Positions 18,870-38,970 of a stretch of DNA of 64,000 nucleotides are shown here, one piece after another (the first letter of the stretch is position 1; every line of letters begins with the position of its first letter). Source of the DNA: Pandoraea capi (GTDB lineage: Bacteria; Pseudomonadota; Gammaproteobacteria; Burkholderiales; Burkholderiaceae); contig NZ_CABPRV010000002.1 of the NCBI RefSeq assembly GCF_902459735.1, positions 731,610-795,609 on the forward strand, given 5' to 3'. The position numbers and the translations under genes are program-made. The notes under the pieces are model-generated. The model was given only the letters and a program-made list of their open reading frames with translations. It had not been told where the DNA came from and made no database searches.

Positions 18870-21005
18870 CTAATACACTAGCTGCACCAGACCGTTCTGG
18901 CAGTTGATGCTGTCCACCGTGACCGTCGTCATGCCCAGCGTGATGCCCAGCGACGACAGCAGCGTATTGAGCACGTTGCTCAGCGGCGTGAGCAGCGGAT
19001 TGAGCAAGGTGTAGAGCACGCTGCCGAGCACCGGTGAGATATCCGACGTGCCGATCGATCCCGATACGGCATTGATACGGCACTGATTGGCGTTACCCGA
19101 CAGATTGCAGAGCAGGTCCGTGACACCGCCCAGTAACCCGGAGACGATGCCGCCCAGCGTGTTGACCAATCCCGTCACCAGCCCGCCCACGCCGCCCAAC
19201 ACCTGCGGCAGATTGAGCGTCAGCACACCGCCGAGCGTCGTGCCGAGCGCATTGGTCGTCTGCTTCAATCCGGCGGCGGCCGTGCTCAGGAAGCTGTTCA
19301 CTGTCGAGATCGACGACCCCGCGAGTGCCGACGGCACATTGTTCACCAGCCCCGTGCCGATGGTCCCGGACGTCGATGTCCCGCCAGCACTCACGTCGAG
19401 CGAGAGCCCGGTCAGCAACGCCTTGACGATCTGACTCAGATCCACGCTCGACCCGATAGGCCCGACCTTTTGCGGGAACGGCCCGGTAAACGTGATCGGC
19501 GCGGGCGAATTCGTCACAAGCGACAAGTTCACGTTAGCCCCCACGTTGATCAGGCCGAGCAACGTCGCAATGTTCGTGCGTTGCGTCATGAGCGTTGTGC
19601 AACTGCGCGGATCGGTCTGCACATTCACCCCGGATGCCGCAGCGCCCACGCACACGTTCACCAGTCCCGAGTTGACCTGCAAGGTGGTCGAGGGCGTCGC
19701 GCCACACTGCAATGCCGTGACCGTCGCCGTCGACTGCGCCACTTCAAGCACCAGCGGAAGATTCAGTTGCGTGCCCACGGCGCTCAAAATCCCGGCAAGC
19801 GGACCGGCGGACGACGCCGCCGAGTTGACCGTCAGGAACAGCCGCACCTGCGCGTTCGTTGCCGTGGCGCCCACGCCTCCGACGCCGATTTGCGGTGGCG
19901 AAATCACCCGCGCCACGACCGACACGGTCCCGCCGAGAATCGAGAGCGACGGCACGGCCACGGCGTTGTTGCCGTTCGCGCCGATGATAGCGGCCGTAAT
20001 CAGATCGGAGATGCCGACGTTCGCACTCAGCGCGTTCGCGGCGCTCACCCCGGCAGCGTCGATGTTCGCGATGATGCCAGGCGACGTCGCGGTCCCCAGC
20101 AGGTTGATCGGCAAATTCAGGACCGGACTGTTCGCGAACACGTTGATGAGGTTGTTCATCGCCGTGACCGAGGCAGACAACGCCCCGTTCTGCGTGGCGA
20201 GCGCCGTATTCGTCGCACTCAGCAGCGTGCCCACGGTGAGGTTCTTCACAGCCGCCACGCCCGAGAGCGACGCCACGCTCACATCCCCCGTCACCGGCAC
20301 ACCGAGCGCCTGCAACAGCCCTTTCGGGGTAATGTTCACACCCACGAGTTGCTGCGCGGCGCCGACATACAGCGACGGCGTGATCCCGACCGCGTTGAGC
20401 AGCGGCGCGAGCACCGAGTTGTTGGCATTGAGCGCCAGGAGGCCCGAATCCACGGTAAACGTCACGACCGCCGGGGCTTTTCGCGCGATGGCATTGGCGG
20501 CAATCGTGCGCGTGCCCGCCAGTTGGAAGAACGACGGCACGCCCAGCGTCAGCGTGACGGACACCGCGTTGCCGTTGGCCGCATTCGCCGACGTCGCCGC
20601 CACGAACGTGCCGGGCGTGCTGGACGACGCCGCAGGCGAGGTCCAGATGCCACAGGACGTCGCGATGGTCAGCCCGGTCACGTTGCTACCGAGGTTCGAG
20701 GTGACGTTCGCTCGCGCGACCGTGTCGTACGACGTGGCGTTGGCGCACCCTGGCAGCGTCTGCGCCCCCGCGAGCGCCGCCATGTCCGCCGCAAGTTGCA
20801 GGTCGCGTCGCTTCATGAACGCGTAGCCGGCATCGATCGCAAACGCCAGAATCAGCACCACGATCAGGAAGATGAAGGCGAGGATCGGCACCGAGCCGCG
20901 CTGACGCGCCGGCAGCCACCCTGAGCGCCGCTCACATCCGGTCGACGGCGCTACCGTCGTGGTCGTCGAGGGCTTCGTGGGGCGCACACGCGCACGCGCT
21001 TTCAT
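18870..21005 (-). CDS. tadG: TadG-like Flp pilus assembly protein
   Basis: A 711-residue protein with one N-terminal membrane segment (LAFIFLIVVLILAFAIDAGYA) immediately after a basic stretch. The QRGSVPILAF start of this helix resembles the TadE/TadG prepilin-like N-terminus, but it lacks Glu at +5. The DLQLAADMAALAGAQ that follows is the hallmark of TadG-like/DUF2134 proteins. The rest is a long periplasmic, Ala/Val/Thr/Asn-rich region of low complexity with few cysteines. Start: a GTG at 21008 precedes this ATG, just after the DUF3613 stop. Inferred role: envelope-anchored minor component of the Tad machine. Confidence 0.82.
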   Translation of the reverse strand: MKARARVRPTKPSTTTTVAPSTGCERRSGWLPARQRGSVPILAFIFLIVVLILAFAIDAGYAFMKRRDLQLAADMAALAGAQTLPGCANATSYDTVARANVTSNLGSNVTGLTIATSCGIWTSPAASSSTPGTFVAATSANAANGNAVSVTLTLGVPSFFQLAGTRTIAANAIARKAPAVVTFTVDSGLLALNANNSVLAPLLNAVGITPSLYVGAAQQLVGVNITPKGLLQALGVPVTGDVSVASLSGVAAVKNLTVGTLLSATNTALATQNGALSASVTAMNNLINVFANSPVLNLPINLLGTATSPGIIANIDAAGVSAANALSANVGISDLITAAIIGANGNNAVAVPSLSILGGTVSVVARVISPPQIGVGGVGATATNAQVRLFLTVNSAASSAGPLAGILSAVGTQLNLPLVLEVAQSTATVTALQCGATPSTTLQVNSGLVNVCVGAAASGVNVQTDPRSCTTLMTQRTNIATLLGLINVGANVNLSLVTNSPAPITFTGPFPQKVGPIGSSVDLSQIVKALLTGLSLDVSAGGTSTSGTIGTGLVNNVPSALAGSSISTVNSFLSTAAAGLKQTTNALGTTLGGVLTLNLPQVLGGVGGLVTGLVNTLGGIVSGLLGGVTDLLCNLSGNANQCRINAVSGSIGTSDISPVLGSVLYTLLNPLLTPLSNVLNTLLSSLGITLGMTTVTVDSINCQNGLVQLVY

Positions 21006-21011
21006 CACGCA

Positions 21012-21602
21012 TCACTGGCTCGCGCCAGCCCCCGCCGAGCTTCCGCTGGTGCCGACGTTGCCGCCCCCACCGCCACCGCCTCCACCGCCGCCTCCGCTAT
21101 CGCTTTGCACCATCGTCGTAAAGAACGCCGGGATCGCGTAATTGAAGCTTTCCAGATAGCGACGATAAGCGCGCGAAGCGGTTGCGCCGAGCATCGGCAA
21201 CCCGGGTCCGGCGGCAAGATTGTTGCCCTGCACGGCGAGCAACGCTTCCGTCTCGTCGCCCAGCATGCCATCGCGCGCGTGTTCGCCGACGCGCGGCGGC
21301 GTAGTACGGCGCACGACATTGGTCGGCGTGCGGGCCGCCTGAACGGGCGCCGGCGCTGCCGCTTGCGCGGCGGGCGCCTGCTGCGCCGTATCGGCTGCGG
21401 GCGACGCCTGTGCGACCTGTACGGCCCGAGCCGTGGAAGGCGACGCCACGGCGCGTGCGTCGGCGCCCCCCATCGATCCGGTGAGCGGCGTGTTGCCCTG
21501 CGCGGTGGCGGCCCCGGCCCACAGCGTGAACACGGCCAATCCGACCTGCATGGCCGTCACCGTGCGCATACCCGGATGTCGCTGAAGTTTCTGGACTGCC
21601 AT
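21012..21602 (-). CDS. DUF3613 exported protein of the Tad locus, with poly-glycine tail
   Basis: 196 residues. Signal peptide near residues 15-35 (GLAVFTLWAGAATA). Then an Ala/Pro/Gln-rich linker and the conserved DUF3613 block (LGDETEALLAVQGNN, then LPMLGATASRAYRRYLESF) at about residues 114-155. DUF3613 genes occur in betaproteobacterial tad clusters; the function is not known. The tail contains an uninterrupted run of 12 glycines (codons GGC/GGT/GGA mixed). The ribosome binding site GGGAGAGG precedes the ATG. It lies between tadD and tadG with a three-base gap to the downstream GTG. Confidence 0.82.
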   Translation of the reverse strand: MAVQKLQRHPGMRTVTAMQVGLAVFTLWAGAATAQGNTPLTGSMGGADARAVASPSTARAVQVAQASPAADTAQQAPAAQAAAPAPVQAARTPTNVVRRTTPPRVGEHARDGMLGDETEALLAVQGNNLAAGPGLPMLGATASRAYRRYLESFNYAIPAFFTTMVQSDSGGGGGGGGGGGGNVGTSGSSAGAGASQ

Positions 21603-21688
21603 GATTCCCTCTCCCTAAGGTTGCGTGATTCGCAACACATGGACTGCTCTTGTCACCGCTGTCGCCCGGTCAACCCGGTCCGAGCGCC

Positions 21689-22774
21689 TTACTGCGAGTG
21701 CGCAAAACGATCGAGCATCGACGTCGGCATGTCGCTGCGCGCGGACTCGCCTGCGCGCGCGAGCTTCGCGTCGGACGTCGCCGCCTTCACGGGCGCCTGC
21801 TGCGGCTGCGTCTGCAGCGTCGTCGCGTTCTGTACCGCATCGGCCGCACCCGGCGTCAGACGCACCACCACGGGCCCACCGGCATCGGCACGCGAGGCCG
21901 TCGCCCCAGCCGACGCAACCGGCGCCGCCTGCGGAACGAGCGACGCCGCCGCCTGCGCCGCCGCACGCGCGGCTGCGGCGTCCGCTGCCTGCTTGCGCGC
22001 CCGGGTGTTCGCCCGGATGTCCGCCGCGAGCTTGTTGATCGCGTCGCGCGTGGTCTGCGGCATCTTGGCGCTCGTCATCATGTCGTCGGCGCGCGAGCGG
22101 TCACCCATCACGACGAGATACACCGCGAGATTGCTCAGCACCTTGCGGCTGTCGGGCCTGAGTTCGGCCGCCTGCGCGAGCGGCACGCGTGCACCCGCCG
22201 TGTCGCCGTTGTTCAGCAGCGCAAAGCCGAGATCGCTCAGATAGAACGCCTCGGTCGGCGCGCGGCTCACGGCCTCACGCAGCGCCTGAGCGGCACCTGC
22301 GTAATCCTTGCGCTGCGCCGCCACGAGTCCGATGCCGTGCCATGCGGCGGCGGCCTCACTGCTCCCCAACAACGCACGATAGGCCTGCTCGGCCTGCTCC
22401 GGTTGTCCGGTCTCGCGCAGCGCATCGGCCCGCAGAATGTCGACGTCAGGTGCGGAACCGTACTGAATCCGGAACTGCTCGATGTGCGCGAGCGAGGCGA
22501 AGTACGACCCCTGCTCCTGCGACTGACGAATCATCGACAGGTACAACTCGCGCGTATCGGGTTTCGCGGCCCTTGCCCGCTCCTCGTCGTTCTGTTGCGC
22601 CTGCATGAGCGCAGCGGCCGACGGCGCGCCGTAACCGCCCAGCGTCGGCCCGCTACTGCATCCGGCGAGCAGCGCCGCGCTCAGTCCGAGGCACAGCGCA
22701 GCGCGCAGCGACGAAGCCTTCCGACTCACGCGGCCCGACGGCTCGCGCGTGAGGTGTTGCGTCTGGATCGGCAT
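21689..22774 (-). CDS. tadD: TadD tetratricopeptide lipoprotein
   Basis: 361 residues. Signal peptide with lipobox (ALLAGCSSG). TPR motifs lie at about residues 115-250 (RADALRETGQPEQAEQAYRA, HGIGLVAAQRKDYAGAAQAL, YLSDLGFALLNNGDTAGARV). A long Ala-rich C-terminal tail follows. In Tad systems TadD is an outer-membrane-associated TPR protein that helps secretin or pilus assembly. The frame stays open to 23503 inside tadC, but the ATG at 22774, two bases after the tadC stop, gives the signal peptide and is the real start. Confidence 0.9.
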   Translation of the reverse strand: MPIQTQHLTREPSGRVSRKASSLRAALCLGLSAALLAGCSSGPTLGGYGAPSAAALMQAQQNDEERARAAKPDTRELYLSMIRQSQEQGSYFASLAHIEQFRIQYGSAPDVDILRADALRETGQPEQAEQAYRALLGSSEAAAAWHGIGLVAAQRKDYAGAAQALREAVSRAPTEAFYLSDLGFALLNNGDTAGARVPLAQAAELRPDSRKVLSNLAVYLVVMGDRSRADDMMTSAKMPQTTRDAINKLAADIRANTRARKQAADAAAARAAAQAAASLVPQAAPVASAGATASRADAGGPVVVRLTPGAADAVQNATTLQTQPQQAPVKAATSDAKLARAGESARSDMPTSMLDRFAHSQ

Positions 22775-22776
22775 GG

Positions 22777-23808
22777 TCAATTCATGGCCTCCATGGATTT
22801 GGTCAGCGACAGAATCGCCGGCCCCGCCACCACGAGCATCAACGCAGGCAGCAGCGTGAGCATCATGGCCAGCGTCATCTTTACGGTCAGCTTGCCGATG
22901 CGCTCCTTCATCGTCTGACGACGTTGCTCGCGCAAGCGGTCGCTGAACTGTTGCAACGGTTCCTGCACCGCGCCGCCGTGCTGCTCGACCTGCACGATGA
23001 GCCGCACCAGCGCGCGCAGATCGTCGTTGTCGTAGACCTCGCGCAAGCGCCCCATCGACGCCTCGCGGCCGCGTCCCGATGCGTACTGACGATTGGCCGC
23101 TTCGAACTCCTTCGACAGGATCGGCAGCACTTCGCGGAAGTCGGAGACCACCACGTACAGACTCTGGTCCATCGACAACCCCACACCCTGCAACAGACGC
23201 AGCAAGTCGATAAGCAGCGGTAATTCGTCGACCAGATCGCGACGACGTTGTGCCGCCTTGCGCTGGATGTAGAACTTCGGCGTGAGCAATCCCGCGCCGG
23301 CCGCGCCAATCAGACGCAGTATCGTGCCGATGCCGCCGCCCCCCGGGAACCACAACCACACGAGCAACGGCAGCACCGCCGCCAACGCCACCCGCGAGAA
23401 GATGAACAACGACTTGGCGCGCACGCTGTCGTAGCCGCATTGCGCGAGCAGCAGACGGTCTTCCGCCGCGATCAGATTCTGGCCGAGGCGCGTTTCCGAC
23501 CATTGCTTGCCGAGCGCTGCCGCCCGGTCCAGGAGCGAGCGCCAGCCACGCTGCCCGCTCTCGAGCGACTCGTCCGTCTCATCATCCGATCGCGCACGCG
23601 CGCCCACCGGCGCCGACGCCGCACGAAGCGCCGCGAGCGCCTGCTGTTGACGATTCGCGAGCACCTGATCGATCACCCGTTCGTTGCGTCCCTGGCGCAC
23701 CGCGCGCAGCAAAATGGCCGACGCCGCCAGCAGCAGACCTGCCGCGACCATCAGCAGGCCGAGCATCATCCACGTTTGCGAATCGGCCGACAGGGACGAA
23801 AGGTTCAT
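22777..23808 (-). CDS. tadC: TadC inner-membrane platform protein
   Basis: 343 residues, type II secretion F-domain protein. N-terminal helix at residues ~12-32 (MLGLLMVAAGLLLAASAILL). A pair of helices about 125-170 precedes the cytoplasmic F domain (DELPLLIDLLRLLQGVGLSM). Two hydrophobic helices near the C-terminus complete the usual topology. With TadB it forms the platform on which the TadA ATPase works. Start chosen at the ATG at 23808 because the upstream open frame overlaps tadB and is not protein-like. Confidence 0.92.
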   Translation of the reverse strand: MNLSSLSADSQTWMMLGLLMVAAGLLLAASAILLRAVRQGRNERVIDQVLANRQQQALAALRAASAPVGARARSDDETDESLESGQRGWRSLLDRAAALGKQWSETRLGQNLIAAEDRLLLAQCGYDSVRAKSLFIFSRVALAAVLPLLVWLWFPGGGGIGTILRLIGAAGAGLLTPKFYIQRKAAQRRRDLVDELPLLIDLLRLLQGVGLSMDQSLYVVVSDFREVLPILSKEFEAANRQYASGRGREASMGRLREVYDNDDLRALVRLIVQVEQHGGAVQEPLQQFSDRLREQRRQTMKERIGKLTVKMTLAMMLTLLPALMLVVAGPAILSLTKSMEAMN

Positions 23809-23855
23809 ATGCGAGATCCTTGCGCTTGGCGAGGGTGAGCGGCGCAGCGCGCCGC

Positions 23856-24782
23856 TCACAACGATTTGGCCAGCCGGTACAACACGAATCCACCGAGGAC
23901 TTCCAGCCCGAGACCGATGGCCAGCAGCTTCTGCCCGGCGCCTTCCTGAAACATCGGCTCGAAGAACTTCGGGTTGAGCAACATCAGCAACGCACTGACG
24001 ACAATCGGCAGCGCCGCGAGCACCCATGCCGACATGCGTGTCTCCGACGACAGCGCGAACAGCTCTGCCTGCGCCTGCTCGCGGTCGCGCATGAAGCCCG
24101 ACATGCGCGCGAGAATCTGGTCGGCACGGCCGCCGAAGCGCGTCGAGAGATCCACCACCGATGCAAACAGATAGATTTCGTCCACCTGATAAACGCGGGC
24201 GATCTGCTTGAGCGCCACGTCCAGCTCCACCCCGGCCTGCACCTGACGCACCGCACGCTCCAGCAATTCTCGCAACGGCAAATCGGCATTGGTCGCGGCT
24301 GACTGGAACGCGGCCGGCAGGCTGTTACCCACCGTGAGCATGCGGACCATGCCGTCGAGGAACACCGGCAACTGACGCACGATGTCGCGATGCCGCCGCG
24401 CCGCCTTGAGCCAATAGCGCATCACCACGCCCACGGCATAGACGATCAGGATCACGATGGCCGAGAGCGGCCCCTGCCAGATCCAGAACCCGAGGGTGAG
24501 CAACACGCCGGGCACGATCAGCATGACGTAGAACGTCGAATCGGTCTGCACACCCGCCCGCTCGAAGAAGAACTCCCACGGCAGGGACTTGCGACGAGGC
24601 GCACGCACCTCGCCGGCGGTATCGCCGCCGGCAAACCTCGGCGCGTTCTGCGCGAGTTGACGCTCAAGGAACGCGCTCGTCGCCTGCTCGCGCACGCGCT
24701 GATTTGTGCGACGCCAAAGCTCCAGCCCCGCCGCGACCAGCAACAGTGCAATACAGGCGGCCCACAGCACGAAGGGATTCAT
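23856..24782 (-). CDS. tadB: TadB inner-membrane platform protein
   Basis: 308 residues with the T2SSF (GspF) domain (RQLPVFLDGMVRMLTVGNSL) between two pairs of membrane helices. The first helix starts at residue 4 (VLWAACIALLLVAAGLEL) and the last ends at the C-terminus. The ATG overlaps the tadA stop by four bases (ATGA), showing translational coupling. It pairs with TadC to form the membrane core of the Flp pilus machine. Confidence 0.93.
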   Translation of the reverse strand: MNPFVLWAACIALLLVAAGLELWRRTNQRVREQATSAFLERQLAQNAPRFAGGDTAGEVRAPRRKSLPWEFFFERAGVQTDSTFYVMLIVPGVLLTLGFWIWQGPLSAIVILIVYAVGVVMRYWLKAARRHRDIVRQLPVFLDGMVRMLTVGNSLPAAFQSAATNADLPLRELLERAVRQVQAGVELDVALKQIARVYQVDEIYLFASVVDLSTRFGGRADQILARMSGFMRDREQAQAELFALSSETRMSAWVLAALPIVVSALLMLLNPKFFEPMFQEGAGQKLLAIGLGLEVLGGFVLYRLAKSL

Positions 24783-26149
24783 CGACGGCGTCCGAAGAAA
24801 CCGCCGCCGCCCGAATCCGGCGGCACGTTGCCTTGCTGCGCCTGCGCGGCGGCCGCAGCATTGCGCGTCTGCTCCTTGAAGCGTTGCAGCTTGGGCGAAT
24901 GCGGCTGAAGCCCCAGCGACACCCACTTGTCCTTCTCCTCGCCGTCCGGGCCGATGACCGATTCGTGGCGGAACAATTCCTGCGTGGAGATCACCGTATC
25001 GGACACGCCGGTGACTTCGGTAATGGACAGAATGCGCCGCCGCCCGTTGGACAGACGGCCGATCTGCACGATGAAATCGAGCGCGCTCGTGATCTGACGG
25101 CGCAGGCTGCTCTCGCTGCCCTGGAAGCCGGCGAAGCCCGCCAGCATCTCCAGACGATAGAGACATTCGCGCGGCGAGTTGGCGTGAATCGTCGCCATCG
25201 AGCCTTCGTGCCCGGTGTTCATCGCCTGCATCATTTCCAGCACCTCCGAGCCGCGCACTTCGCCCACGATGATCCGGTCGGGACGCATCCGCAAGCTGTT
25301 GCGGATCAGGTCGCGAATCGTCACCTCGCCGGAACCGTCGAAGCCGCCCTGGCGGGACTCCAGCCGCACCACGTGCGGGTGATTGAGCGAGAGTTCGGCC
25401 GTGTCCTCGACCGTCACCACACGCTCGGTCGCCGGGATGAAACTCGCCAGCGCGTTGAGCAGCGACGTCTTGCCCGAGCTCGTACCGCCGGACACCAGAA
25501 TGTTGCAGCGCGAGCGCACCGCCGCCTCAAGCAGCGTGTAGATCTCCTCGTTGAAGCTGCCCAGCGCGAGCAGATCGGACGGCTTGAGCGGATCCTTGCG
25601 GAACTTACGGATGGAGACGACCGGCCCGTCGACCGCCAGCGGCTCGATCACGACGTTCAGACGCCCGCCGTCAGGCAAGCGCGCGTCGACCATCGGGTTC
25701 GATTCATCCAGCCGCCGCCCGATCGGCGCGAGAATGCGCCGCACGATACGCAGCAGATGCTGGTTGTCCGAGAAGCGCAGCGCTTCGCGCGCGAGCACCC
25801 CGCGACGTGAGACGTACACGTCGTTGTAGCCGTTGATCAGAATATCTTCGACGGCCGCATCGGCCAGCAAGTCCTCGATAGGACCGAAGCCGGCCAGTTC
25901 CTTCGTCAGCGCGTCGGAAATCTGACGAAGCTCCGCCTCGTTGATCGGAATACGACGCAAGCGTACGAAACCGTCCATTTCCAGATCGACGAACTGCTGA
26001 ATCGCGCTGCGGCTCCAGCGTCCGAATTCTGCGCCGAGTTCCTCAATGCGCGCGAGCAGATGTTCATGCGCTGCGGTCTTGATGTCCTGGAACTGCTGTG
26101 AATTGGCAAACGCGCGCTTGTCGTCGGCGAATTCGATGGAGTCGGTCAT
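24779..26149 (-). CDS. tadA: TadA/CpaF secretion ATPase
   Basis: 456-residue hexameric ATPase that powers Flp pilus assembly. Walker A is [15 protein letters not shown], followed by the Asp box ([11 protein letters not shown]), Walker B-like [20 protein letters not shown] and the His box [12 protein letters not shown]. The N-terminal half shows the CpaF features INGYNDVYV and [11 protein letters not shown] Gly-rich tail ends the protein. The start lies one base after tadZ ends, and the stop overlaps tadB, so tadZ-tadA-tadB are tightly coupled. Confidence 0.96.
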
Positions 26150-26150
26150 A

Positions 26151-27503
26151 TCAGTGCTTTCCCATGAATCGGCCTAGCCAGCCCGACGACTGGCGTTGTG
26201 CTGCGGTGCCTGCGTGTTGTGCGGAAAGCAGGCGCTCCACCAACGGTTGCAGCGCGCGGACATAGGGGTCGCCGCGCGCCGTGTCGATAATCAGCTTGCC
26301 CTGGTTGGTAGCGGAGAGCATGGCGAGCGGACGATCCGGCAGCGTGGCGAGCAGCGGCACGTCGAACCGCTTGGCGATCTGGTCAGCGGCCATGCCGTAA
26401 CGCGGGTCATAGCGGTTGAGCACGAGATGCAGATGACTGCGCTCGACGCCCTTTTCCTCAAGATCGCGCAGCATCGACGCGAGCGAGACGATGGCCCCGA
26501 CGCTCTGATCCACCACGAGCCACACCTCGTCGGCTGCCCGCACGAGGCTCGCGACGAACGCCGGATTCGAGAAGCCGCCCAGATCGGCCACGATCAGATC
26601 GAAGAACGCGCGCAGACGGTCGGTGAGCGCCAGCGCATCGGCCGCCGCAACGCTGCGCATATCGCCCAGATCGAGCGGCAGCGGCAGCACGGCCAGCCCG
26701 CTCGGCGCATGCGAGACGGCGGTATGCACGAGGGTTTCGTCGAAGCGTCGCAGGTTCTGCACGGCTTCGGCGAAGCTGAACTGGCTTTGCGTGTTGAGAT
26801 AGAGCAGCCCGTCGCCGGACGGCAGGCCGAGATCGAGCAGTGCGACGTGGCCGAGCAGCGAGCCGTCGAACTTGTCGTCCTTGTTGCCGGCGGCCTTCGC
26901 AGCCTTGGCGGCGCGTTCCGCACGCTCAGAATTCGACCCTACCGAGGCCTCCTGTCCGAGCTGCGACAGATGGGCGGCGAGCGTGCTGCATCCCACCCCG
27001 ATGCGCGCGCCGAGCAGCACGATGAAGCGGCCATGCCGTTGCGGTGCTGCGGCATTCGTCACGGTCGGGGTGTGATCGATCACGCGACGCACGACTTCGA
27101 GGGCTTCCTCGTGCGTCGAATGCATGTCGATGAAGTCGTGCACACCGGCACGTATGGCAGCTTTCATGCCATCGGCCCGCACCATCGAACCGACGGCCAC
27201 CAGCGGCAGCTTGGGCGCCACGCGCTTGAGCATCTGGGCAAGCTCCGAGGCCTGTGCGATGCCCCCATCGGGCGGTTCGTCGGCATGACCGGTCGGCTCA
27301 CCCGAGAAGTCGAGCAACACGACTTGCGGATCGAGATCGCCGATGCGCTGCTGCAATTGCGCCGGGCGTCCGGCCTCTTGCAGCACGACGCCCTCTTCGC
27401 GCAAAGCGGCCGAGAGCCACTGTCCGTGGCCGGCATGTGCGCTGCAAAAAAGAAAGCGATGCAACTCAGTCATGGTGTCCAGTATTCGCGTCGGTGCGTT
27501 CAT
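26151..27503 (-). CDS. tadZ: TadZ/CpaE pilus localisation protein with atypical MinD-like ATPase domain
   Basis: 450 residues. An N-terminal receiver-like domain (DPQVVLLDFSGEPTG) is followed by a ParA/MinD fold. The P-loop reads GARIGVGCSTLAAHL instead of the usual KGGVGKT, so both signature lysines are missing. This is typical of TadZ and predicts weak or no ATPase activity. A long Lys/Ala insert (about 165-190) precedes the LDLGLPSGDGL region. TadZ is thought to place the Tad machine at the cell pole. The start has AAGGAG eight bases upstream. A further Met at 27473 is possible. Confidence 0.9.
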   Translation of the reverse strand: MNAPTRILDTMTELHRFLFCSAHAGHGQWLSAALREEGVVLQEAGRPAQLQQRIGDLDPQVVLLDFSGEPTGHADEPPDGGIAQASELAQMLKRVAPKLPLVAVGSMVRADGMKAAIRAGVHDFIDMHSTHEEALEVVRRVIDHTPTVTNAAAPQRHGRFIVLLGARIGVGCSTLAAHLSQLGQEASVGSNSERAERAAKAAKAAGNKDDKFDGSLLGHVALLDLGLPSGDGLLYLNTQSQFSFAEAVQNLRRFDETLVHTAVSHAPSGLAVLPLPLDLGDMRSVAAADALALTDRLRAFFDLIVADLGGFSNPAFVASLVRAADEVWLVVDQSVGAIVSLASMLRDLEEKGVERSHLHLVLNRYDPRYGMAADQIAKRFDVPLLATLPDRPLAMLSATNQGKLIIDTARGDPYVRALQPLVERLLSAQHAGTAAQRQSSGWLGRFMGKH

Positions 27504-27615
27504 TTGTGCACTCCTTACTACCCCATCCCGGCCCTCGCCAGTGCCTCGTCCGATGTTGCCGTTGCGTCGTCCAACTGCATCGCTTGCGCCCTGTGCAGTC
27601 GATCCGACGTCAGCA

Positions 27616-28998
27616 TCACTTTGAGAAACCCGGCAGTTCGCTGTCGCTTGCTACGCCCATCAGATACGCGCCCCACACTTGCCCCGGCCGCTTCTCGCGC
27701 GTGTCGCCCGGCAGCGGCAAGGCGACGTCGCGGGCCACCGGTTTGACGAGGCGCGGCGTCACGATGATGACCAGTTCCTTTTCAGTGCTGTTGTACTTCA
27801 GATTCCGGAAAAACGCGCCGATGAGCGGCAGATCGCCGAGCAGCGGCACTTTGTCGACGGCGGCGGTCGTGGTGCGCGAGATCAGCCCGCCGATGATGAA
27901 GCTTTCGCCGTCGCCGAGTTCGACCGTCGTATCGGCACGGCGGGTGGTGATCGCCGGAATCTGCGTCGACGCGATGACCACGGCGTTCGTGTAGTCGAGG
28001 TCCGACGCCTCCGGCGCGACCTTCAGTGCAATGCGATTCGGCGACAGGATCGTCGGCGTGACCGTCAGCCCGACACCGAACGACTTGTAGACGATCGTCG
28101 TTGTCCCCAGCCCGCCGGACTGCGGCACGGGCAACTCGCCGCCGGCGAGGAAGCTCGCGCTCTGTCCCGAGAGCGCCACCAGCGTCGGCGCAGCGAGCAC
28201 GCGGCCCAGGCCGTTCGTCTGCAACAGATCGATCTCCGCCGAGAGGTTGAATGCACCCCGCGTAATCGAGCCGAAGAACGAACCGAAGTTCGAGACCGAC
28301 GTGCCGCCGCTGCCGAAGGCCGACGCCAACTGCGAGTTCACCCCGAAGCTGCCCGAGCCCGATTTCCTCGACGCGCTGAAGCTCGCCCCCAGTTGATTCA
28401 GAATGTTGCGATTCACTTCCACGATCTTGACGTCGACCTGCACGACGCCGGTGTCGCCGACGGTAGAGCGGTCGACGACGACACCGCCTTTGCCCGTGGC
28501 ATCGACGGCCGCCGCTTGCAGGCCGCTGTGTTCCATCAGCGAGCCGGCGTGGCCCTTGATGATCGCGGCGCTACCGCGCGGGTCCACACTGGCGCCGCCC
28601 GTGTCACCGAGCGCGCTTTGCAGGCTGCCCTGCACATGGATTTCCCAGCGTGTCGGTTCGCCACCGCGCGGCCACGTCGACACCTGCGTCGTGCCCGCTT
28701 TCTTGCCGACGACCAGCACTGAGCCGCGCCGCCCGCCCGAGCCCTTGAGCACCACGATGTCCGCGATATCCGGGTCCGCGACGGCCACGCGCTCCAGCGT
28801 GCCGCTCACCTGCAATTCACGTTGCTCATGCACCCCCAGCGTAAGCGACCTCGCCCCGGCGCCTGATGCGTTATCGGCCGCATCGGCCATGCGCACTGCG
28901 ACGGTCCCGCCGCAGGCGAGCAACGCCGTAAAACACAACAACATTCCCATGACACGTCTGGCATCTCGTCTGGCAGTGCGAACCTGGCTTCTGATCAT
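27616..28998 (-). CDS. rcpA: RcpA/CpaC outer-membrane secretin
   Basis: 460 residues. Signal peptide (MGMLLCFTALLACGG); N-terminal pilus assembly domain with VADPDIADIVVL and a BON-like part; then the secretin domain with GLGRVLAAPTLVALSGQSAS and ELGDGESFIIGGLISR. It forms the gated pore for the Flp pilus in the outer membrane. The open frame extends to a TTG at 29133, but the first 45 residues are not signal-like; the ATG at 28998 is used. Lies between tadZ and cpaB. Confidence 0.92.
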   Translation of the reverse strand: MIRSQVRTARRDARRVMGMLLCFTALLACGGTVAVRMADAADNASGAGARSLTLGVHEQRELQVSGTLERVAVADPDIADIVVLKGSGGRRGSVLVVGKKAGTTQVSTWPRGGEPTRWEIHVQGSLQSALGDTGGASVDPRGSAAIIKGHAGSLMEHSGLQAAAVDATGKGGVVVDRSTVGDTGVVQVDVKIVEVNRNILNQLGASFSASRKSGSGSFGVNSQLASAFGSGGTSVSNFGSFFGSITRGAFNLSAEIDLLQTNGLGRVLAAPTLVALSGQSASFLAGGELPVPQSGGLGTTTIVYKSFGVGLTVTPTILSPNRIALKVAPEASDLDYTNAVVIASTQIPAITTRRADTTVELGDGESFIIGGLISRTTTAAVDKVPLLGDLPLIGAFFRNLKYNSTEKELVIIVTPRLVKPVARDVALPLPGDTREKRPGQVWGAYLMGVASDSELPGFSK

Positions 28999-29170
28999 GG
29001 CGTGGCTGTATCGGTCACTGTGTCGGTGGAGCGACGTGGCCCGGATCGGCGTCGTGCCATGCCGGGGCGTCACTGGATCTGCGTGTCGATGCTTTCCGTT
29101 CGTTCGGTAAGAATTCGGTAAAACTCGGTTCAATCACTCGGTCCAATTCGTCAGTTCAGGTCAGTTCAGA

Positions 29171-30205
29171 TCAGTAAGCCGCCGTGGAGCGTTCCGCGCC
29201 GCGCACGATCTCGATCGTGCCGCCGCTGCTGCTGCCGCCGCCACCGGGTGCTCGCGGCGCTGCGGCCGCTGCGGGGCGGCGCGTCGGCTCGCCTGCCAGG
29301 CCCGTTGTGGCGATCCCGGCGTAAGCACGGTTTTCAGGGGTATCAAGGGCGGCCTTGGTATCCGCCGTCAGGCCTGACTTGCTCGCGAGCACGGGCGGCG
29401 GCGGCGGGAACAGCGAAGTATCGGGATGGGTGTCGTCGGCCGGATTGCGCAACGCCAGTGTGATCTTCCCCTGCTGCGCCCCGAGCACGAGACGGTTGAC
29501 GTCTTCGACCGGCACGGCCACGACGGCCGAGGTGGCGGGCATCGGTGGTAGTGCGGCTGGCGCAGGTTGCTGAGGCTGCGGCGCGCTGGCGGTCGCGGCG
29601 GCAACCGTCGAGGCGACACTCGGCGCGGCCGGCTGCGGCGTCACGTCGTCCAGCGACGCATTGCCGTAGGTCAGCACGCGCACCCGCGACGCGAGCAGGC
29701 GGGCCTGCGTGTCGTCGACGATGCCGACGGTCGGACTACCCGCCGGCTGGTTCGTCTTCATCGTGAAGAAGACGTCGACGAAATCGCCCGGACGAATGCG
29801 GTTGCTCACGCCGACGGTTTCCGTCACGGGAAGCGCCACGGCGCGCTCGCCCGGTGCGAGTTGCATGGCGAGTCCGCGGGCAAGCACGTTCTGCGTGACG
29901 GGAACACCCGCGGCGAGGGCCACGAGCGGCACACGTCCCACGACGTCGGCCGGGATGTTGAAACCCGCCGGCGTGGGGCTATCGAATTGCGCGATCTTGA
30001 CGTCGTCCGCCGTAATGGGCTTGCCGGGCGAAAGCGCCCTGGCCGCCACCACGGCCGGGAAACGCTGAGTGAGCGTCTGGGTCACTGCCGAAGGTGTGGT
30101 TTGCGGCGCGGGGGCATTCGTCGTCCCCAAGCGCAACGCGAAGAGCGCCAGCACCACTCCGGCAACAACTAGCACAGCAGCGAGAATCTTGGTGGCTTTG
30201 TTCAT
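29171..30205 (-). CDS. cpaB: CpaB/RcpC pilus assembly protein (SAF domain)
   Basis: 344 residues. One N-terminal membrane helix (ILAAVLVVAGVVLALFAL), then an SAF domain (ARALSPGKPITADDVKIAQF) and the RcpC/CpaB block (GERAVALPVTETVGVSNRIR, GDFVDVFFT). The C-terminal third is Pro/Ala/Gly-rich with long low-complexity stretches. CpaB is a periplasmic partner of the secretin, thought to stabilise it or to bind peptidoglycan. Start is ATG. Confidence 0.92.
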   Translation of the reverse strand: MNKATKILAAVLVVAGVVLALFALRLGTTNAPAPQTTPSAVTQTLTQRFPAVVAARALSPGKPITADDVKIAQFDSPTPAGFNIPADVVGRVPLVALAAGVPVTQNVLARGLAMQLAPGERAVALPVTETVGVSNRIRPGDFVDVFFTMKTNQPAGSPTVGIVDDTQARLLASRVRVLTYGNASLDDVTPQPAAPSVASTVAAATASAPQPQQPAPAALPPMPATSAVVAVPVEDVNRLVLGAQQGKITLALRNPADDTHPDTSLFPPPPPVLASKSGLTADTKAALDTPENRAYAGIATTGLAGEPTRRPAAAAAPRAPGGGGSSSGGTIEIVRGAERSTAAY

Positions 30206-30369
30206 GGCTTGGGGCCTGTCGGCCGTTCAGTCACAACTTGCGGGACGCCGGCAAACCGGCGGCATGTCAACCTTCTTGCTATGTCGCTACTTCTGCACTT
30301 CGCTACTTCCAGACGCCACAGGCTGTCGCACATGCCGTCGTTCACCCGCCTTGCGCGGCAACCCATCTG

Positions 30370-30846
30370 TCAGCTACCGCCCAGCGTCGAGGTGTCGAGC
30401 GTCACGGCTGCCGTACCCGTCACGGTCGTCGGCACCAGCGCGCCCAGCCCCGGCCAGTTCACCGTCATCGGCTGATTGAGCGTGAGCGTGACATGGACGA
30501 TGCATTGCGATACGGCGCCTGCACCCGACGCCGGGCATGGATACGTGGCATCGGCCGGAAACGTCGCCGTTACCGCCGAGGCCGACGGCCACGTCAGCGT
30601 TGTGTTGATCGCGGTCGTGGCGTAGGCCTGACGCTGCGTCATCGTGCCGGCGCGCAACATCGCACGGCCTGCTTCGGAGGCGGCCTGCGTGAGCATCTGT
30701 CGGGCAAGAATATTGAGAGAGAAGGCGACGGCGACGTAGAAAGCAGGCAGCAGGATCATGAGAATGAGCATGAATTCCAGTGCCGCGACGCCGCGCATGT
30801 TCGCGCATCGCAACCCTGTCCTTGCCTGTGCCCCAGACCGCTTCAT
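30370..30846 (-). CDS. tadE: TadE-like pseudopilin
   Basis: 158 residues from the ATG at 30846. It carries a prepilin-like cleavage site: basic leader, then Gly19 before VAALEFMLILMILLPAFYVA, with Glu at +5, as in TadE-family pseudopilins processed by TadV. The periplasmic part has one disulfide candidate pair (YPCPASGAGAVSQCIV). The open frame extends to 31047, but the 67 added residues are not protein-like. Confidence 0.88.
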   Translation of the reverse strand: MKRSGAQARTGLRCANMRGVAALEFMLILMILLPAFYVAVAFSLNILARQMLTQAASEAGRAMLRAGTMTQRQAYATTAINTTLTWPSASAVTATFPADATYPCPASGAGAVSQCIVHVTLTLNQPMTVNWPGLGALVPTTVTGTAAVTLDTSTLGGS

Positions 30847-31047
30847 GAAGATACCCCCCGTCGCGCACGGCACTCTTCGTCCGTGTCTGGCGACGCATGA
30901 ACCTGCAATTTGCGCGGCGTCGCCCGCGCCTCCCATTATTACGGCGCTGCCTCCGGCAGCACTCGTTACTCCTGTCGCGTGTGAAACCTGAAACGACTTG
31001 CGAGGCTTCCGACACCGGCGAAGGGCGCCCTCACGCCCACGTCGCAC

Positions 31048-31536
31048 CTACCTCACTACGAGCGCCGCCGCAGCCAGATATGCCCCGTAAGGCAACCCGA
31101 CGCGTCCCGCCCGCCACTGCAAAATTCGTCGCCATGCTTGCGAGGCAGTCACACGGTCGCGCCAACGCGTCAACGCTTTTGACCGCTTCGAGCGTCCCGC
31201 CAGCAGCAGGAGCGCATGAACCCCCGCTGCCACGCTGGCCAGACACCAGACCGGCAACAGCGCCGGATAGCCAGCGACCAGTCCGATCACCGCAAACAAC
31301 TTGACGTCGCCGGCGGCCATGACACCGCGCCACCAGAAAGGCAGCAGTACGATCAATCCAAGCACCGCGCCAAGCCCGTGAACCCACACCACGTGCGCGC
31401 TGGAATGCCACGCCTGCCAGCCGATCCCCCCCAGCGCCGGTACACCGATACACAGCAGCCAGAGGTTCGGGATACGTCGCGCAATCAGATCAGTCAATAC
31501 GATCGGCACGCACAACAGCCACAGCAATGTCAGCAC
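31048..31536 (-). CDS. tadV: TadV/CpaA prepilin peptidase
   Basis: 162-residue aspartic protease of the inner membrane (A24 family, short TadV type) that trims Flp, TadE and TadG-type prepilins. The two catalytic aspartates are Asp16 (VLTDLIARRIPN) and Asp77 in the GDVK motif (MAAGDVKLFAV). At least four hydrophobic helices. The GTG start is six bases after the Flp stop codon, so translation is probably coupled to the pilin gene. Confidence 0.92.
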   Translation of the reverse strand: MLTLLWLLCVPIVLTDLIARRIPNLWLLCIGVPALGGIGWQAWHSSAHVVWVHGLGAVLGLIVLLPFWWRGVMAAGDVKLFAVIGLVAGYPALLPVWCLASVAAGVHALLLLAGRSKRSKALTRWRDRVTASQAWRRILQWRAGRVGLPYGAYLAAAALVVR

Positions 31537-31542
31537 AGCGTG

Positions 31543-31743
31543 TCAATGCGACGACGCCGACGTTGCTGCCGAAGTCACCGTACTGAAGGCGCTCGAAAGT
31601 ACGCTACTCATATTCGTGTACACCGTACCGCCGATGATCACCGCCACGATTGCGGCGAGGATGCCGTACTCCAGTGCGGTGACACCCTTTTGCCGGGACA
31701 GTCGAAGCTGCCGTCCGGTCTTGCTTGCGCGATTTGCCTGCAT
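31543..31743 (-). CDS. flp1: Flp-type pilin 1
   Basis: 66-residue class IVb pilin. Basic leader of 20 residues ending in Gly20, then VTALEYGILAAIVAVIIGGT with Glu at +5 and Tyr at +6, the Flp signature. The mature pilin is about 46 residues, ending in a Ser/Ala/Thr-rich tail with a terminal His. It is the second of two Flp genes and is directly followed by tadV. Confidence 0.95.
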   Translation of the reverse strand: MQANRASKTGRQLRLSRQKGVTALEYGILAAIVAVIIGGTVYTNMSSVLSSAFSTVTSAATSASSH

Positions 31744-31921
31744 GATTCGCTTCCTCGCGAATACAGCATCCCACTACCCCGAATGGCATCCCGTACAACA
31801 GATGCCTTTCCCCAATCCGTCAGCACGATCCCTCGCTACAGCACGCAGACGCGAGGTACACATGCCGACTTGTCTTTCGGCGCGCTTCGGCGCCTTCCCG
31901 CCACGCCAATGCGTTAATGCG

Positions 31922-32107
31922 TTAGGCGCCAGCCGCCGTGACCGCCGACTGAATCTTCGAGAACACCGACGAGAACGCCGTGCCCAGGTTGGTATAAACG
32001 GTGCCGCCAATGATCACCGCCACGATAGCGGCGAGGATGCCGTACTCCAGTGCCGTTACACCACGCTCGTCGCGCGCAAACAGTCGAAAACGATTACCGA
32101 GCTTCAT
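31922..32107 (-). CDS. flp2: Flp-type pilin 2 (first gene of the Tad operon)
   Basis: 61 residues from the ATG at 32107, with the strong ribosome binding site GGGAGGGTGAT just before it. The leader ends at Gly16 and the mature part begins VTALEYGILAAIVAVIIGGT, identical to Flp1 over the first 23 mature residues; the tails differ (NLGTAFSSVFSKIQSAV here). As the promoter-proximal gene with the best ribosome binding site it is likely the major pilin; that is an inference. Confidence 0.93.
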   Translation of the reverse strand: MKLGNRFRLFARDERGVTALEYGILAAIVAVIIGGTVYTNLGTAFSSVFSKIQSAVTAAGA

Positions 32108-32605
32108 ATCACCCTCCCTCAAAAAGACGCATCAGCGCCTGTTGGCACACAGCGGAACATCACAGCGGCCCGATGGGCTGACGTGCAGTCCTGCCATATC
32201 GCTTATCAACTCTTGACTTCGGCCTCGGGCTCGTTGCGCTATAAGGCTCGCGAACCTCTTTTACGTTGTACGCCAATATTTGCCGGGCTATTGGTACAGC
32301 CTTTGCGGCGGCGTACTATTATTTTTCGATGCTAATTTAAACTAAATCACAAAAACTAGAGTCTTGCTTCCAATCACTCCGGCGATTGTAAAAATACGTT
32401 ACACCGGTTGATCAAACAATACTCCAAAACTAAGCAAATCAGCGCTCGCGAGGGAAAACCATGATTGGTGCGGCGCCACACACCGCATCGAAATCGCCGC
32501 GGCCAACTCCAGTGCGTATTTAAATAACTATTCATCCATCTGGCACGCAGCACCCTGCGCTGCCAGCCCCAGTGTGCAAGTACACACCAGCGCTATCGCT
32601 ACTTA

Positions 32606-32622
32606 GTTATCCCTTGGATAAC
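32606..32622. promoter_or_regulatory. Perfect inverted repeat GTTATCC-CTT-GGATAAC
   Basis: A 7-bp dyad with a 3-base spacer in the middle of the regulatory gap. It could be an operator for a dimeric regulator such as the MarR protein at 36620, but there is no direct evidence. Confidence 0.4.
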
Positions 32623-32775
32623 CGATTCGCAAAGACGTTTCACGCCTTTACATAAAAGTACGGCTTCCTCAGCATCGCCTTCGATCCGGCATTACCCGAA
32701 TGTCGTGCGCTCCTTCTATTAGTTGCGCAATGCCGACCCGCATTTACCGGCTTGTTTTTCATTTGCCTTTCGTTC

Positions 32776-32836
32776 CGTTACATCCCGATCACATCCCAAT
32801 CGTTACGTAACGTTACCCGTAACGCCCCCCGTAACG
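32776..32836. promoter_or_regulatory. Array of six CGTTAC/GTAACG boxes, probable enhancer for the sigma-54 promoter
   Basis: CGTTAC lies at 32776, 32801 and 32811, and its inverse GTAACG at 32807, 32819 and 32831. Two perfect palindromes result: CGTTACGTAACG (32801-32812) and CGTTAC-CC-GTAACG (32811-32824). The array centre is about 210 bases upstream of the -24 element at 33021, the usual distance for an upstream activating sequence bound by a sigma-54 activator. Confidence 0.6.
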
Positions 32837-33020
32837 GGAACGCCAATTCCTCTGTTTTTCGCCATTTCCCGATGGCGTTAACCCTGACTCTCCTCATCCC
32901 CTTCGCCATCCCGATCTCTCGATTCGAAAGATTCTTGTTTTCCGAAACGCAAATAAATACAGGCTTTTCAGCCGATTCGAGAAAAAACTAGAAGAGTTAT
33001 TCAAACCGTGAATCTTCGGT

Positions 33021-33036
33021 TGGCACACCTCTTGCA
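33021..33036 (+). promoter_or_regulatory. Sigma-54 (RpoN) promoter, -24/-12 elements
   Basis: The sequence TGGCACACCTCTTGCA matches the consensus TGGCAC-N5-TTGCA at every conserved position. Transcription should start near 33048, about 30 bases before the ATG of the small gene at 33078. Confidence 0.88.
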
Positions 33037-33077
33037 GATATCCCTGCATCGCAACGCTAAAGATCACGAGGGACACC

Positions 33078-33395
33078 ATGATCGTTGGCAATACCAAACA
33101 AACGATGCACGGCGCCGCGGCCATCTCGGCAGAGCGTCAACGCATCTCGGCAAAACAGCAAAGCGCTGCGGCCGACACCGATCGTAGAGGCGCAAGCCCA
33201 GGGAGGGGCGGTGAAGAAGGCGGTGGCGTACGCGCCACCGCCACACCGGCCGAAGTGGCAAACGCTCGCAGCAGCAACACGCATTCGGCCCATGCGATGA
33301 CGGGCCCCGATAGCGCAGTCGTCAACGCGCTCCTGTTCGCACTCATCGCACAACGCATGAACAACCGATTGGCTGCACAAGACGTGCTCGCCTGA
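33078..33395 (+). CDS. Small protein of unknown function, first gene after the sigma-54 promoter
   Basis: 105 residues with no signal peptide. Charged N-terminal half with Gln/Arg/Ala-rich stretches (SAERQRISAKQQSAAAD), a Gly/Glu-rich middle and a C-terminal helix with aliphatic residues (SAVVNALLFALIAQRMNNRL). The ribosome binding site GAGGG lies 6-7 bases before the ATG. It stands 27 bases before the first glycine-rich lipoprotein gene and very likely shares its mRNA. Not recognised. Confidence 0.65.
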   Translation: MIVGNTKQTMHGAAAISAERQRISAKQQSAAADTDRRGASPGRGGEEGGGVRATATPAEVANARSSNTHSAHAMTGPDSAVVNALLFALIAQRMNNRLAAQDVLA

Positions 33396-33422
33396 TTACG
33401 ACAAAGACCAGAGGACTCCATC

Positions 33423-35018
33423 ATGAAAAACATCCAACGCACCCTTCTCGCTTCCGCCGTTATCCTCGCCGTCGTCACGATGACCGGCTGCGCAAGCTCC
33501 GGCTCCGGCGGCACCAGTGGCTCGCTCGGCGATGGTGGCGGCAGCGGCACCACGGCTGGCACCGGTAGCGGCGGCGGTTCGGGCGCAGGCACCGTGCCCG
33601 ACGGCTCGGGCAGCGGCAATGGCGACGGTAGCGGTAACGGCAATGGCAATGGCAATGGCAATGGCAATGGAAACGGCAACGGTGGCACTGGCGCCTCGGC
33701 CAACCCCATCGGTACCGTGGCAGCCACGGCCAGCACGGGTGTCGTAACGCAGGTCGGCAAGACGGTCAGCGATCTCGGCACGGTCGTAGGCAGCACGAAC
33801 CTGCCGCTGGTCAGCTCGCAAACGCAAAGCGGCCTGGCAGGCGCCACGACCAAAACTGGCGACGCCGTGCAATCGATCGGCAACGGCCTGACGAACGGCC
33901 TGGGCAAACTGGGTTCCGGCAACGACGTGCTCAACCCGACGCTCACCGGTGTGACGGGCGCCGTGACCAACCTCGGTCAGGCCGGTCAGCAACTCGGTAA
34001 CGCTGTAGCTGGTCTCGGCCAGACCACGGGCCTCGACAAGATCGCGCCGGTAGGCAGCGTGACCACGCTGCTCGGCGGTGTCGTGAGCGCGGTCGGTGGT
34101 GCAGGCGCCGCCCTCGGCACGGGGCTGACGGACACCGTCAACAGCACGCCGGTGCAGCAACTGACCTCGGGGCTGTCGAAAACCATCACGCCGATCACCA
34201 CGGTCGTGACCAACACCACGCAAACCGTGGGCAACGCAACGGGCCTCGGCACGCCGGTGGCCGGTCTGCTGGCCCAAGTCGGCGGCGGTCTGGCCGGCGT
34301 GGGTACCAAGATCGGTGGTCAGATCAACAACCCGATCGCGAAGGATCTCGGTGGCGTCGTCACCGGTGTCGGCAACACGGTGGCCAGCCTTGGCGGTCTC
34401 GTGCACGGCACGCCGACCAGCACCAACCCGCTCGCACCGCTCACCTCGGCCCTCGGCGGCCTGTCGGGTGTCGTGGGTGGCGGCACGGGCACGGGTAGCG
34501 GCCCGCTCGCCCCGGTCACGAATCTCGTCTCCGGTCTGACGGGCGCCCTCGGCGGTGCCGCAGGCGGCGCCTCGGGCAACAACCCGCTCGCCCCGGTCAC
34601 GAACCTCGTCTCCGGTCTGACGGGTGCCCTCGGCGGCGCCACGGGCGGTGCCTCGGGCAGCAACCCGCTCGCTCCGGTCACGAACCTCGTCTCCGGCCTG
34701 ACGGGCGCCCTCGGCGGTGCCACGGGCGGTGCCTCGGGTAGCAACCCGCTCGCCCCGGTGACGAACCTCGTCTCCGGTCTGACGGGTGCCCTCGGCGGCG
34801 TGACGGGCGGCGCAGGCGCCTCGGCAGGCTCGGGTGGTGCGTCGGCCGGCGGCAGCGCCTCGGCTTCGGGCAACGTCCTGGCCCCGGTGACCACGCTGCT
34901 CGGCTCGGTGACGGGTGCAGTCGGCGGTGCAACGTCGGGGAGCGGCAGCAACAGCGGCGGCCCGCTCGCTCCGGTGACCGGCTTGCTCGGCGGCCTGCTC
35001 GGCGGCGGCAAGAAGTAA
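33423..35018 (+). CDS. Glycine-rich repeat lipoprotein 1 (paralogue A)
   Basis: 531 residues. Signal peptide with lipobox TMTGC (Cys23), then a Gly/Ser/Asn-rich linker that includes an (Asn-Gly)n run. A conserved ~230-residue region follows, of repeated Thr/Val/Leu-Gly units (QVGKTVSDLGTVVGSTNLPL, QTVGNATGLGTPVAGLL). The C-terminal part carries four tandem 27-residue repeats of the form NPLAPVTNLVSGLTGALGG plus a Gly/Ala/Ser spacer. It ends LAPVTGLLGGLLGGGKK. Similar Burkholderia proteins are often called collagen-like, but no Gly-X-Y register is visible. Predicted to be lipid-anchored and envelope- or surface-exposed. AGAGGACTCC precedes the ATG. Confidence 0.85.
   Translation: MKNIQRTLLASAVILAVVTMTGCASSGSGGTSGSLGDGGGSGTTAGTGSGGGSGAGTVPDGSGSGNGDGSGNGNGNGNGNGNGNGNGGTGASANPIGTVAATASTGVVTQVGKTVSDLGTVVGSTNLPLVSSQTQSGLAGATTKTGDAVQSIGNGLTNGLGKLGSGNDVLNPTLTGVTGAVTNLGQAGQQLGNAVAGLGQTTGLDKIAPVGSVTTLLGGVVSAVGGAGAALGTGLTDTVNSTPVQQLTSGLSKTITPITTVVTNTTQTVGNATGLGTPVAGLLAQVGGGLAGVGTKIGGQINNPIAKDLGGVVTGVGNTVASLGGLVHGTPTSTNPLAPLTSALGGLSGVVGGGTGTGSGPLAPVTNLVSGLTGALGGAAGGASGNNPLAPVTNLVSGLTGALGGATGGASGSNPLAPVTNLVSGLTGALGGATGGASGSNPLAPVTNLVSGLTGALGGVTGGAGASAGSGGASAGGSASASGNVLAPVTTLLGSVTGAVGGATSGSGSNSGGPLAPVTGLLGGLLGGGKK
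33633..33680 (+). repeat. Hexanucleotide tandem repeat (GGCAAT)n encoding Gly-Asn
   Basis: Five perfect GGCAAT units (33639-33668) flanked by imperfect copies (GGTAAC, GGAAAC, GGCAAC) inside lipoprotein 1. Copy number could vary by slippage without breaking the frame. Confidence 0.85.
34502..34825 (+). repeat. Four tandem 81-bp repeats inside lipoprotein 1
   Basis: Units begin at 34502, 34583, 34664 and 34745, exactly 81 bases apart, and differ at few positions, mostly third codon bases. Each encodes 27 residues containing PLAPVTNLVSGLTGALGG. Near identity at DNA level points to recent duplication or gene conversion. Confidence 0.9.
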
Positions 35019-35321
35019 TCCGGCGCACTGAATCCACCACGCCAGCACAGACGAACAGGCCACCGATCATGACCCGCGCGATTCCACCGCCAGCCTGCGA
35101 CCGCCGCGATCCGGCCCTCGCTCCGATGCCCACGCATCGGACCGGGCTGGCCCGGATCCGGCTCACCCAACACGCCGCGCGCCTCCAACGGCATCACAGC
35201 GAGCGGCCCCGGTTCCTCAAATGGAAATAGCGGTACCTGACGGTAAGCCTCACAACGAAACGGCATCAATGCGCGGTCCCCCGCCAGCCAACATTCAGAA
35301 CGACTCAGGGAGATAGACATC
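35019..35321 (+). other. Spacer between lipoproteins 1 and 2
   Basis: No gene is supportable. Contains a hairpin CCGATGC-CCAC-GCATCGG (35123-35140) within a GC-rich region, without a T-run, so it may be an attenuator or RNA-stability element rather than a terminator. No sigma-54 or sigma-70 promoter was found. Confidence 0.45.
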
Positions 35322-36548: not shown

Positions 36549-36619
36549 CTGATGCAGTACGTGGCCCGGCGCACCTTCGCGCCGGCCACACAACCCACAA
36601 CAATCGATAAGGAGATGCC

Positions 36620-38824: not shown

Positions 38825-38907
38825 TATCGATCGCGCACCGATCACGCAAGTCGAAGGATCGCGAGGGGGAACCGCTATCGGCGTGCAGGCGTCGAGTGCG
38901 GCGTAAG

Positions 38908-38970
38908 ACGGCAACGCCCGGACAGTGAAGCGACACTGTCCGGGCGTTGCCGTTTTCGATCGTTTTTTTA
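38908..38970 (+). terminator. Strong Rho-independent terminator closing the lipoprotein cluster
   Basis: Perfect 20-bp stem (38908-38927 with 38934-38953; ACGGCAACGCCCGGACAGTG and its complement), loop AAGCGA, followed by TTTCGATCG and seven T. Confidence 0.93.

Follow-up and report, generated by a model that had tools for sequence, protein, structure and literature searches.

The collagen-like lipoproteins (CLPs) of the Bcc-CLP family, which are proposed Burkholderia adhesins, have already been described, and the accessible part of that description places two of them, BCAL1523 and BCAL1524, beside the flp operon of Burkholderia cenocepacia (PMC10224339). Deletion of BCAL1524 lowered both autoaggregation and virulence in Galleria, according to the available text of PMC10303873. 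BCAL1524-1520 and BCAL1525-1537 are presented as two putative operons, and several of their genes had lower levels in a cepR mutant (available sections of PMC2753556); contact with host-derived vesicles induced the flp genes together with BCAL1520, BCAL1523 and BCAL1524 (accessible portion of PMC7970998). GtrR (BCAL1536), encoded in the same Tad/flp locus, appears in the available excerpts of PMC12838280 and PMC9684580 as a quorum-sensing global regulator that acts together with c-di-GMP and with RpfR, the receptor for BDSF, and the former also describes cepI as being under RpfR-GtrR regulation.

The window, i.e., the whole 64,000-nucleotide stretch of Pandoraea capi DNA that was analyzed, carries a comparable arrangement, whose features are collected in Table 1. 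The initial annotation had listed five plus-strand open reading frames (ORFs) between 33078 and 38824, encoding a small protein, three lipoproteins and a MarR regulator, and an ORF check found all five as described; its statement that the lipoproteins were undescribed had to be dropped, since they are PF15984 proteins of the Bcc-CLP family. All three match PF15984 (Collagen_mid) above the curated cut-off and, as judged by eye, carry a lipobox at the N terminus (MTGC, LTGC and VTGC in CLP1, CLP2 and CLP3, respectively). A structure prediction of the CLP2 domain, made from the three window sequences, was helical with a mean pLDDT of 48 and was set aside. The search of Pfam and NCBIfam gave no match for the 105-aa small protein. 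As for the divergent Tad locus, its Cpa-like genes bear names that we presume to apply.

Table 1. Features of the CLP and Tad region of the window (positions are those of the window)
Feature	Position	Strand	Description
Sigma-54 enhancer-binding protein, 468 aa	17237..18643	-	AAA+ domain, GAFTGA, Fis-type HTH
Flp/Tad pilus locus	18870..32122	-	Two Flp pilins, TadE-, TadG- and Cpa-like genes; divergent from the CLP cluster
Putative enhancer	32800..32844	.	GTTAC/GTAAC boxes at 32802, 32807, 32812, 32819 and 32831; identity 0.91
Conserved block with GCGTTAACCCTGA	32871..32890	.	Identity 0.92
Conserved block between enhancer and promoter	32926..32972	.	Identity 0.95, equal to that of the promoter
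Sigma-54 -24/-12 element TGGCACACCTCTTGCA	33021..33036	+	TGGCAC-N5-TTGCA, zero mismatches
Predicted transcription start	~33046	+	Inferred from the position of the -24/-12 element
Small protein, 105 aa	33078..33395	+	Match in 28/32 same-genus genomes
CLP1, collagen-like lipoprotein, 531 aa	33423..35018	+	PF15984, E 9.6e-49
CLP2, collagen-like lipoprotein, 408 aa	35322..36548	+	PF15984, E 1.4e-44
MarR-family regulator, 258 aa	36620..37396	+	N-terminal extension; profile match
CLP3, collagen-like lipoprotein, 436 aa	37514..38824	+	PF15984, E 3.3e-47
Strong intrinsic terminator	38905..38970	+	23-bp stem at ~38905-38956, then T-run; folding z -8.5

The strong terminator that had been placed after the cluster was borne out by its long stem, its T-run and its folding score, and it is plausible that 33078-38824 is read as a single transcript. 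Within 33078-38824, a scan picked up neither a terminator on the plus strand nor a sigma-70-like promoter; this negative result is weak because the same scan missed the terminator at 38905-38970. An attenuator in the gap at 35019-35321 was rejected on its fold (z of -0.78). Directly after the terminator of the cluster lies an ORF with a Lipase_3 match (39111-40595).

The cluster was initially annotated as preceded by a perfect sigma-54 consensus (TGGCAC-N5-TTGCA), and inspection of the sequence confirmed this element at 33021-33036 on the plus strand, with 41 bases between TGGCACACCTCTTGCA and the ATG at 33078. No other site in the window comes within one mismatch of the consensus, and matches with up to two mismatches (14) are fewer there than expected by chance (20). 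The 5.85-Mb genome contains one RpoN gene (PF04552 match, E value of 7.8e-67) and four perfect copies of the motif versus three of the reversed pattern, so that a perfect motif alone proves little; sites of the looser form TGGCAY-N5-TTGC are in excess (49 versus 19 for the reversed pattern). Another of the perfect sites in this genome (G000:C9:67797) has TGTTAC at -106 and GTAACG at -100. We judged the motif at 33021-33036 to be real because it is conserved in place across the genus, not because it is perfect. In an alignment of same-genus promoters anchored on the start codon of the small protein, with one row per genome and one duplicate locus (L029) dropped, TGGCA[CT]-N5-TTGC was kept at the same position in all 26 promoters that could be aligned out of the 28 genomes with a small-protein match, and the mean column identity of the element was 0.95 versus 0.43 for 32670-32790. 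The two genomes outside the alignment, G023 and G030, whose small-protein matches are short, have TGGCAT-N5-TTGC with five boxes upstream.

Three further stretches upstream of the element are conserved in the same alignment, namely the putative enhancer and the two blocks that follow it (Table 1). An integration host factor (IHF) site between the enhancer and the promoter was set aside, as the best match to the IHF consensus there has two mismatches and none has fewer. A second plus-strand sigma-54-like site about 770 to 820 bp upstream was likewise set aside, being present in only 7 of the 26 genus genomes; in the window it corresponds to a degenerate site at 32292-32307, the seven genomes having TGGCAC-N5-TTGC thereabouts. 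On the flp side of the intergenic region, a sigma-54 promoter was rejected, as the window's intergenic region has no sigma-54-like site in that sense even when two mismatches are allowed, and none was seen at the flp promoter in the genus alignment. Weak candidates in the flp sense, with two mismatches and with boxes, occur in L202 and L250. The flp-side promoter itself is strongly conserved in the genus around 32380-32410 and contains a TGTAACG..TTACA palindrome, at which a second regulator may bind.

Upstream of the promoter lies an array of GTTAC/GTAAC boxes. Besides the five listed in Table 1, a sixth box stands at 32777, outside 32800-32844, and the conserved boxes lie at -244 to -190; CGTTACNCGTAACG occurs only once in the genome. 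When the 320 bp upstream of the 49 loose sigma-54-like sites of the same genome were compared, this promoter, with six boxes, was the only one with more than three, two sites having three and the rest at most two. We then compared 29 sigma-54-like sites upstream of Tad-linked CLP genes (11 perfect, 13 with one mismatch and 5 with two), taken from 25 loci, of which the window and 17 loci from other genomes represent eight genus groups with the window's own (g1, g3, g10, g11, g16, g20, g24 and g25) and seven come from named species. At least two boxes were present at -280 to -110 in 29 of these 29 chosen sites, and their total was 129 boxes versus 13.9 expected from dinucleotide shuffles, which would leave 2.3 of the 29 sites with at least two; these counts are not independent draws, because the best site was picked in each intergenic region and because the two sites of four divergent pairs have their boxes in common. 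Four additional loci agree, one of them in g5 (L250), two in g15 (L251 and L252, two mismatches each) and one in g10 (L248, two mismatches). In Paraburkholderia xenovorans LB400, the site at the locus (L204) has one mismatch and is preceded by four boxes. As read from the DNA, a -24/-12 element with boxes upstream corresponds to the way in which activator-dependent sigma-54 promoters are built. The earlier proposal of an RpoN-type, activator-dependent promoter before the cluster is thus upheld by the conserved element, by the boxes arrayed upstream of it and by the presence in the window of a gene for a candidate activator.

PF15984 was found in 109 of 200 sampled family genomes and in 10 of 25 genera. 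The CLP genes adjoin flp/tad genes in fetched loci of g3, g5, g10, g11, g15, g16, g20, g24 and g25, as well as in B. cenocepacia, B. dolosa, B. multivorans, P. xenovorans, P. fungorum, Caballeronia sordidicola and Trinickia soli; in four loci of g3 and g24 (L063, L064, L066 and L075) the tad genes lie downstream of the CLP gene on the same strand. CLP genes also occur away from Tad loci. Of 20 CLP genes that are distant from the Tad locus or lie on a different contig (the distance being uncertain for L240, whose genome is fragmented), 14 are preceded by a site with no more than two mismatches together with one or more boxes at -130 to -165, and the arrangement is absent from the other six (L233, L238, L239, L240, L241 and L245). 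With at most one mismatch allowed, sites were present at 7 of the 20 genes, versus none of 20 for the reversed pattern. Three further CLP loci lack adjoining Tad genes, two of them having the site and boxes (L060 and L070) and one having no site (L067).

The gene for the candidate activator occupies the distal end of the Tad locus, adjoining a TadG-like gene. Sigma-54 activators gave 16 matches across the genome, 11 of them strong and 5 weak, and this is the only one that lies within the window (17240-18643, minus strand). The activator was matched at an E value of 1e-60 or better in 31 of 32 genus genomes and, with up to eight activator candidates scored per genome, at 1e-90 or better in at least 108 of the 200 family genomes and at least 11 of the 25 genera. 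Comparing the tables of CLP and activator matches by hand, we found both in 106 of the 200 genomes, a CLP only in 3 (G182, G190 and G192), the activator only in 2 (G013 and G037) and neither in 89, a co-occurrence that is not an independent test because it follows genera. In G192, a 30-kb contig ends near the place where the activator would be expected. The G013 locus (L074, 4018-5866), from a same-genus genome without CLP genes, has a MarR match adjoining the activator, whose own match is in two pieces, and no tad or CLP match occurs in the 20 kb fetched around it. In G037, which has a Tad locus and the activator and gave no CLP match, three boxes stand upstream of a pilin-like ORF (L249:3136-3173).

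Most g11 and g20 matches are 60-63% identical to the window activator over nearly its full length. The Tad-linked ortholog of B. cenocepacia NCTC13227 has 463 codons, and both gtrR primers (PMC8174753) match it exactly, which identifies it as GtrR (BCAL1536). Among solved structures, the chain nearest to the window activator is 7vbs/7vbw, aligned over residues 1-461 of 468, and the HTH region hardly varies among 15 aligned activator proteins. The gene linkage and the co-occurrence with CLP genes suggest that the Tad-encoded GtrR ortholog is likely the activator of the CLP promoter. The bclACB and cepI reporters originate from the GtrR paper (Yang 2017), in which GtrR reportedly binds the bclACB promoter. 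A 506-bp bclACB promoter fragment contained no box and no sigma-54-like site. As a positive control, bclACB thus failed to confirm the boxes, which speaks against the GtrR step, so that either GtrR acts otherwise at bclACB or another activator reads the boxes.

That the boxes of a genuine sigma-54 promoter are read by an enhancer-binding protein of the genome other than the Tad-encoded GtrR ortholog is an alternative that we consider unlikely. It would fit the lack of boxes in the bclACB fragment, the ten strong activator matches that the genome holds besides the GtrR ortholog and the 3 of 109 CLP genomes without a GtrR-type match, one of which is the genome with the truncated contig. It is opposed by the gene linkage, by the co-occurrence of CLP genes and activator in 106 of 200 genomes and by the near invariance of the HTH in the 15 aligned proteins, which parallels that of the boxes across their genera. 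It is less probable still, and in our opinion doubtful, that the cluster is driven mainly by another promoter, such as a sigma-70 promoter within 32926-32972 or a CepR-like quorum-sensing route, with sigma-54 playing a minor role. The block at 32926-32972 is indeed as conserved as the sigma-54 element, and a cepR mutant of B. cenocepacia shows lowered BCAL1520 and several flp genes (available sections of PMC2753556). However, the scan detected no sigma-70-like site in 32000-39200, and such a promoter would not explain why the same genes in different genera repeatedly carry the boxes and the -24/-12 element. This recurrence also bears on the reading to which we give hardly any credence, a chance match of the motif to the sigma-54 consensus. 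The near parity of perfect and reversed motifs in the genome would allow it, yet the motif is kept in place in all 26 aligned same-genus genomes and other genera have the site at the same genes with the same boxes; we rejected a chance match on the conservation of the -24/-12 element.

Collectively, the best explanation of these data, and one that we hold to be reasonably probable, is a sigma-54 promoter of an operon for the small protein, the three CLPs and the MarR regulator that is opened by the Tad-encoded GtrR-type activator acting on the boxes. RpoN-polymerase would wait as a closed complex at 33021-33036, and the activator, whose gene lies at the distal end of the adjoining Tad locus, would occupy the GTTAC/GTAAC boxes of 32800-32844, contact the promoter through looping of the DNA and open the complex with ATP. 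Transcription would then start at about 33046 and run as one unit to the terminator, near 38970, and the surface lipoproteins would be made under the control of the pilus locus's own regulator. The inducing signal may be BDSF and c-di-GMP acting through RpfR, as in B. cenocepacia. Against this mechanism stand the bclACB fragment, the six CLP genes away from Tad loci and L067 that lack the arrangement, the window's flp promoter with its lack of a sigma-54-like site at up to two mismatches, and the ten other strong activators. Opinion is evenly balanced on the broader proposition that GtrR is the ancestral local sigma-54 activator of the family's Tad loci, which reads GTTAC/GTAAC arrays and switches on CLP genes there and elsewhere. 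If it were true, BDSF/c-di-GMP signalling would be tied to a family-wide adhesin regulon. RpoN-type control of CLPs, one of which (BCAL1524) affects aggregation and virulence, becomes directly testable with a defined promoter, a defined enhancer and a candidate activator that has a name; it would also provide GtrR with targets and with a sequence that it recognizes in DNA.

The literature that we could consult, mostly papers free of subscription and in part only excerpts, yielded no statement on RpoN or GtrR control of CLP genes, and by title none of the publications retrieved on collagen-like proteins and RpoN concerned Burkholderia. The accessible part of PMC10224339 reports no sigma-54 control of Bcc-CLPs, and term searches showed neither a CLP nor an flp pilus gene in the main text of the papers on the NtrC regulon (PMC5491218), the P. 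phymatum rpoN gene (PMC5979394), BerB (PMC5552954) or the BDSF stimulon (PMC3502180). Sigma-54 has been put forward as a controller of the bacterial exterior in a general proposal on surface and exported components (available text of PMC3162934). A specific parallel is the BerB-RpoN-berA system for the Bep exopolysaccharide in B. cenocepacia, which, as far as the accessible parts of PMC5552954 and PMC9684580 go, likewise links an RpoN activator tied to c-di-GMP and RpfR with a surface component of biofilms; both its activator and its target differ from those of the window system. The closest counterpart is the Bcc-CLP locus of B. cenocepacia, where, according to the available text of PMC10224339, the PF15984 lipoproteins BCAL1524/1523 are likewise divergent from the flp operon. 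The CLP promoter of strain NCTC13227 also has a perfect sigma-54 site, with four boxes upstream. The window cluster adds to this arrangement the small protein, a third CLP and the MarR gene, and no MarR or small-protein match was found in the seven loci of named species. GtrR, the ortholog of the window activator, likewise sits in the Tad/flp locus of B. cenocepacia and differs in being described there as a quorum-sensing global regulator working with RpfR and c-di-GMP (accessible portions of PMC12838280 and PMC9684580). None of the components (CLPs, GtrR, RpoN promoters and Tad loci) is new by itself, and the new part is apparently the predicted sigma-54/GtrR/lipoprotein regulon.
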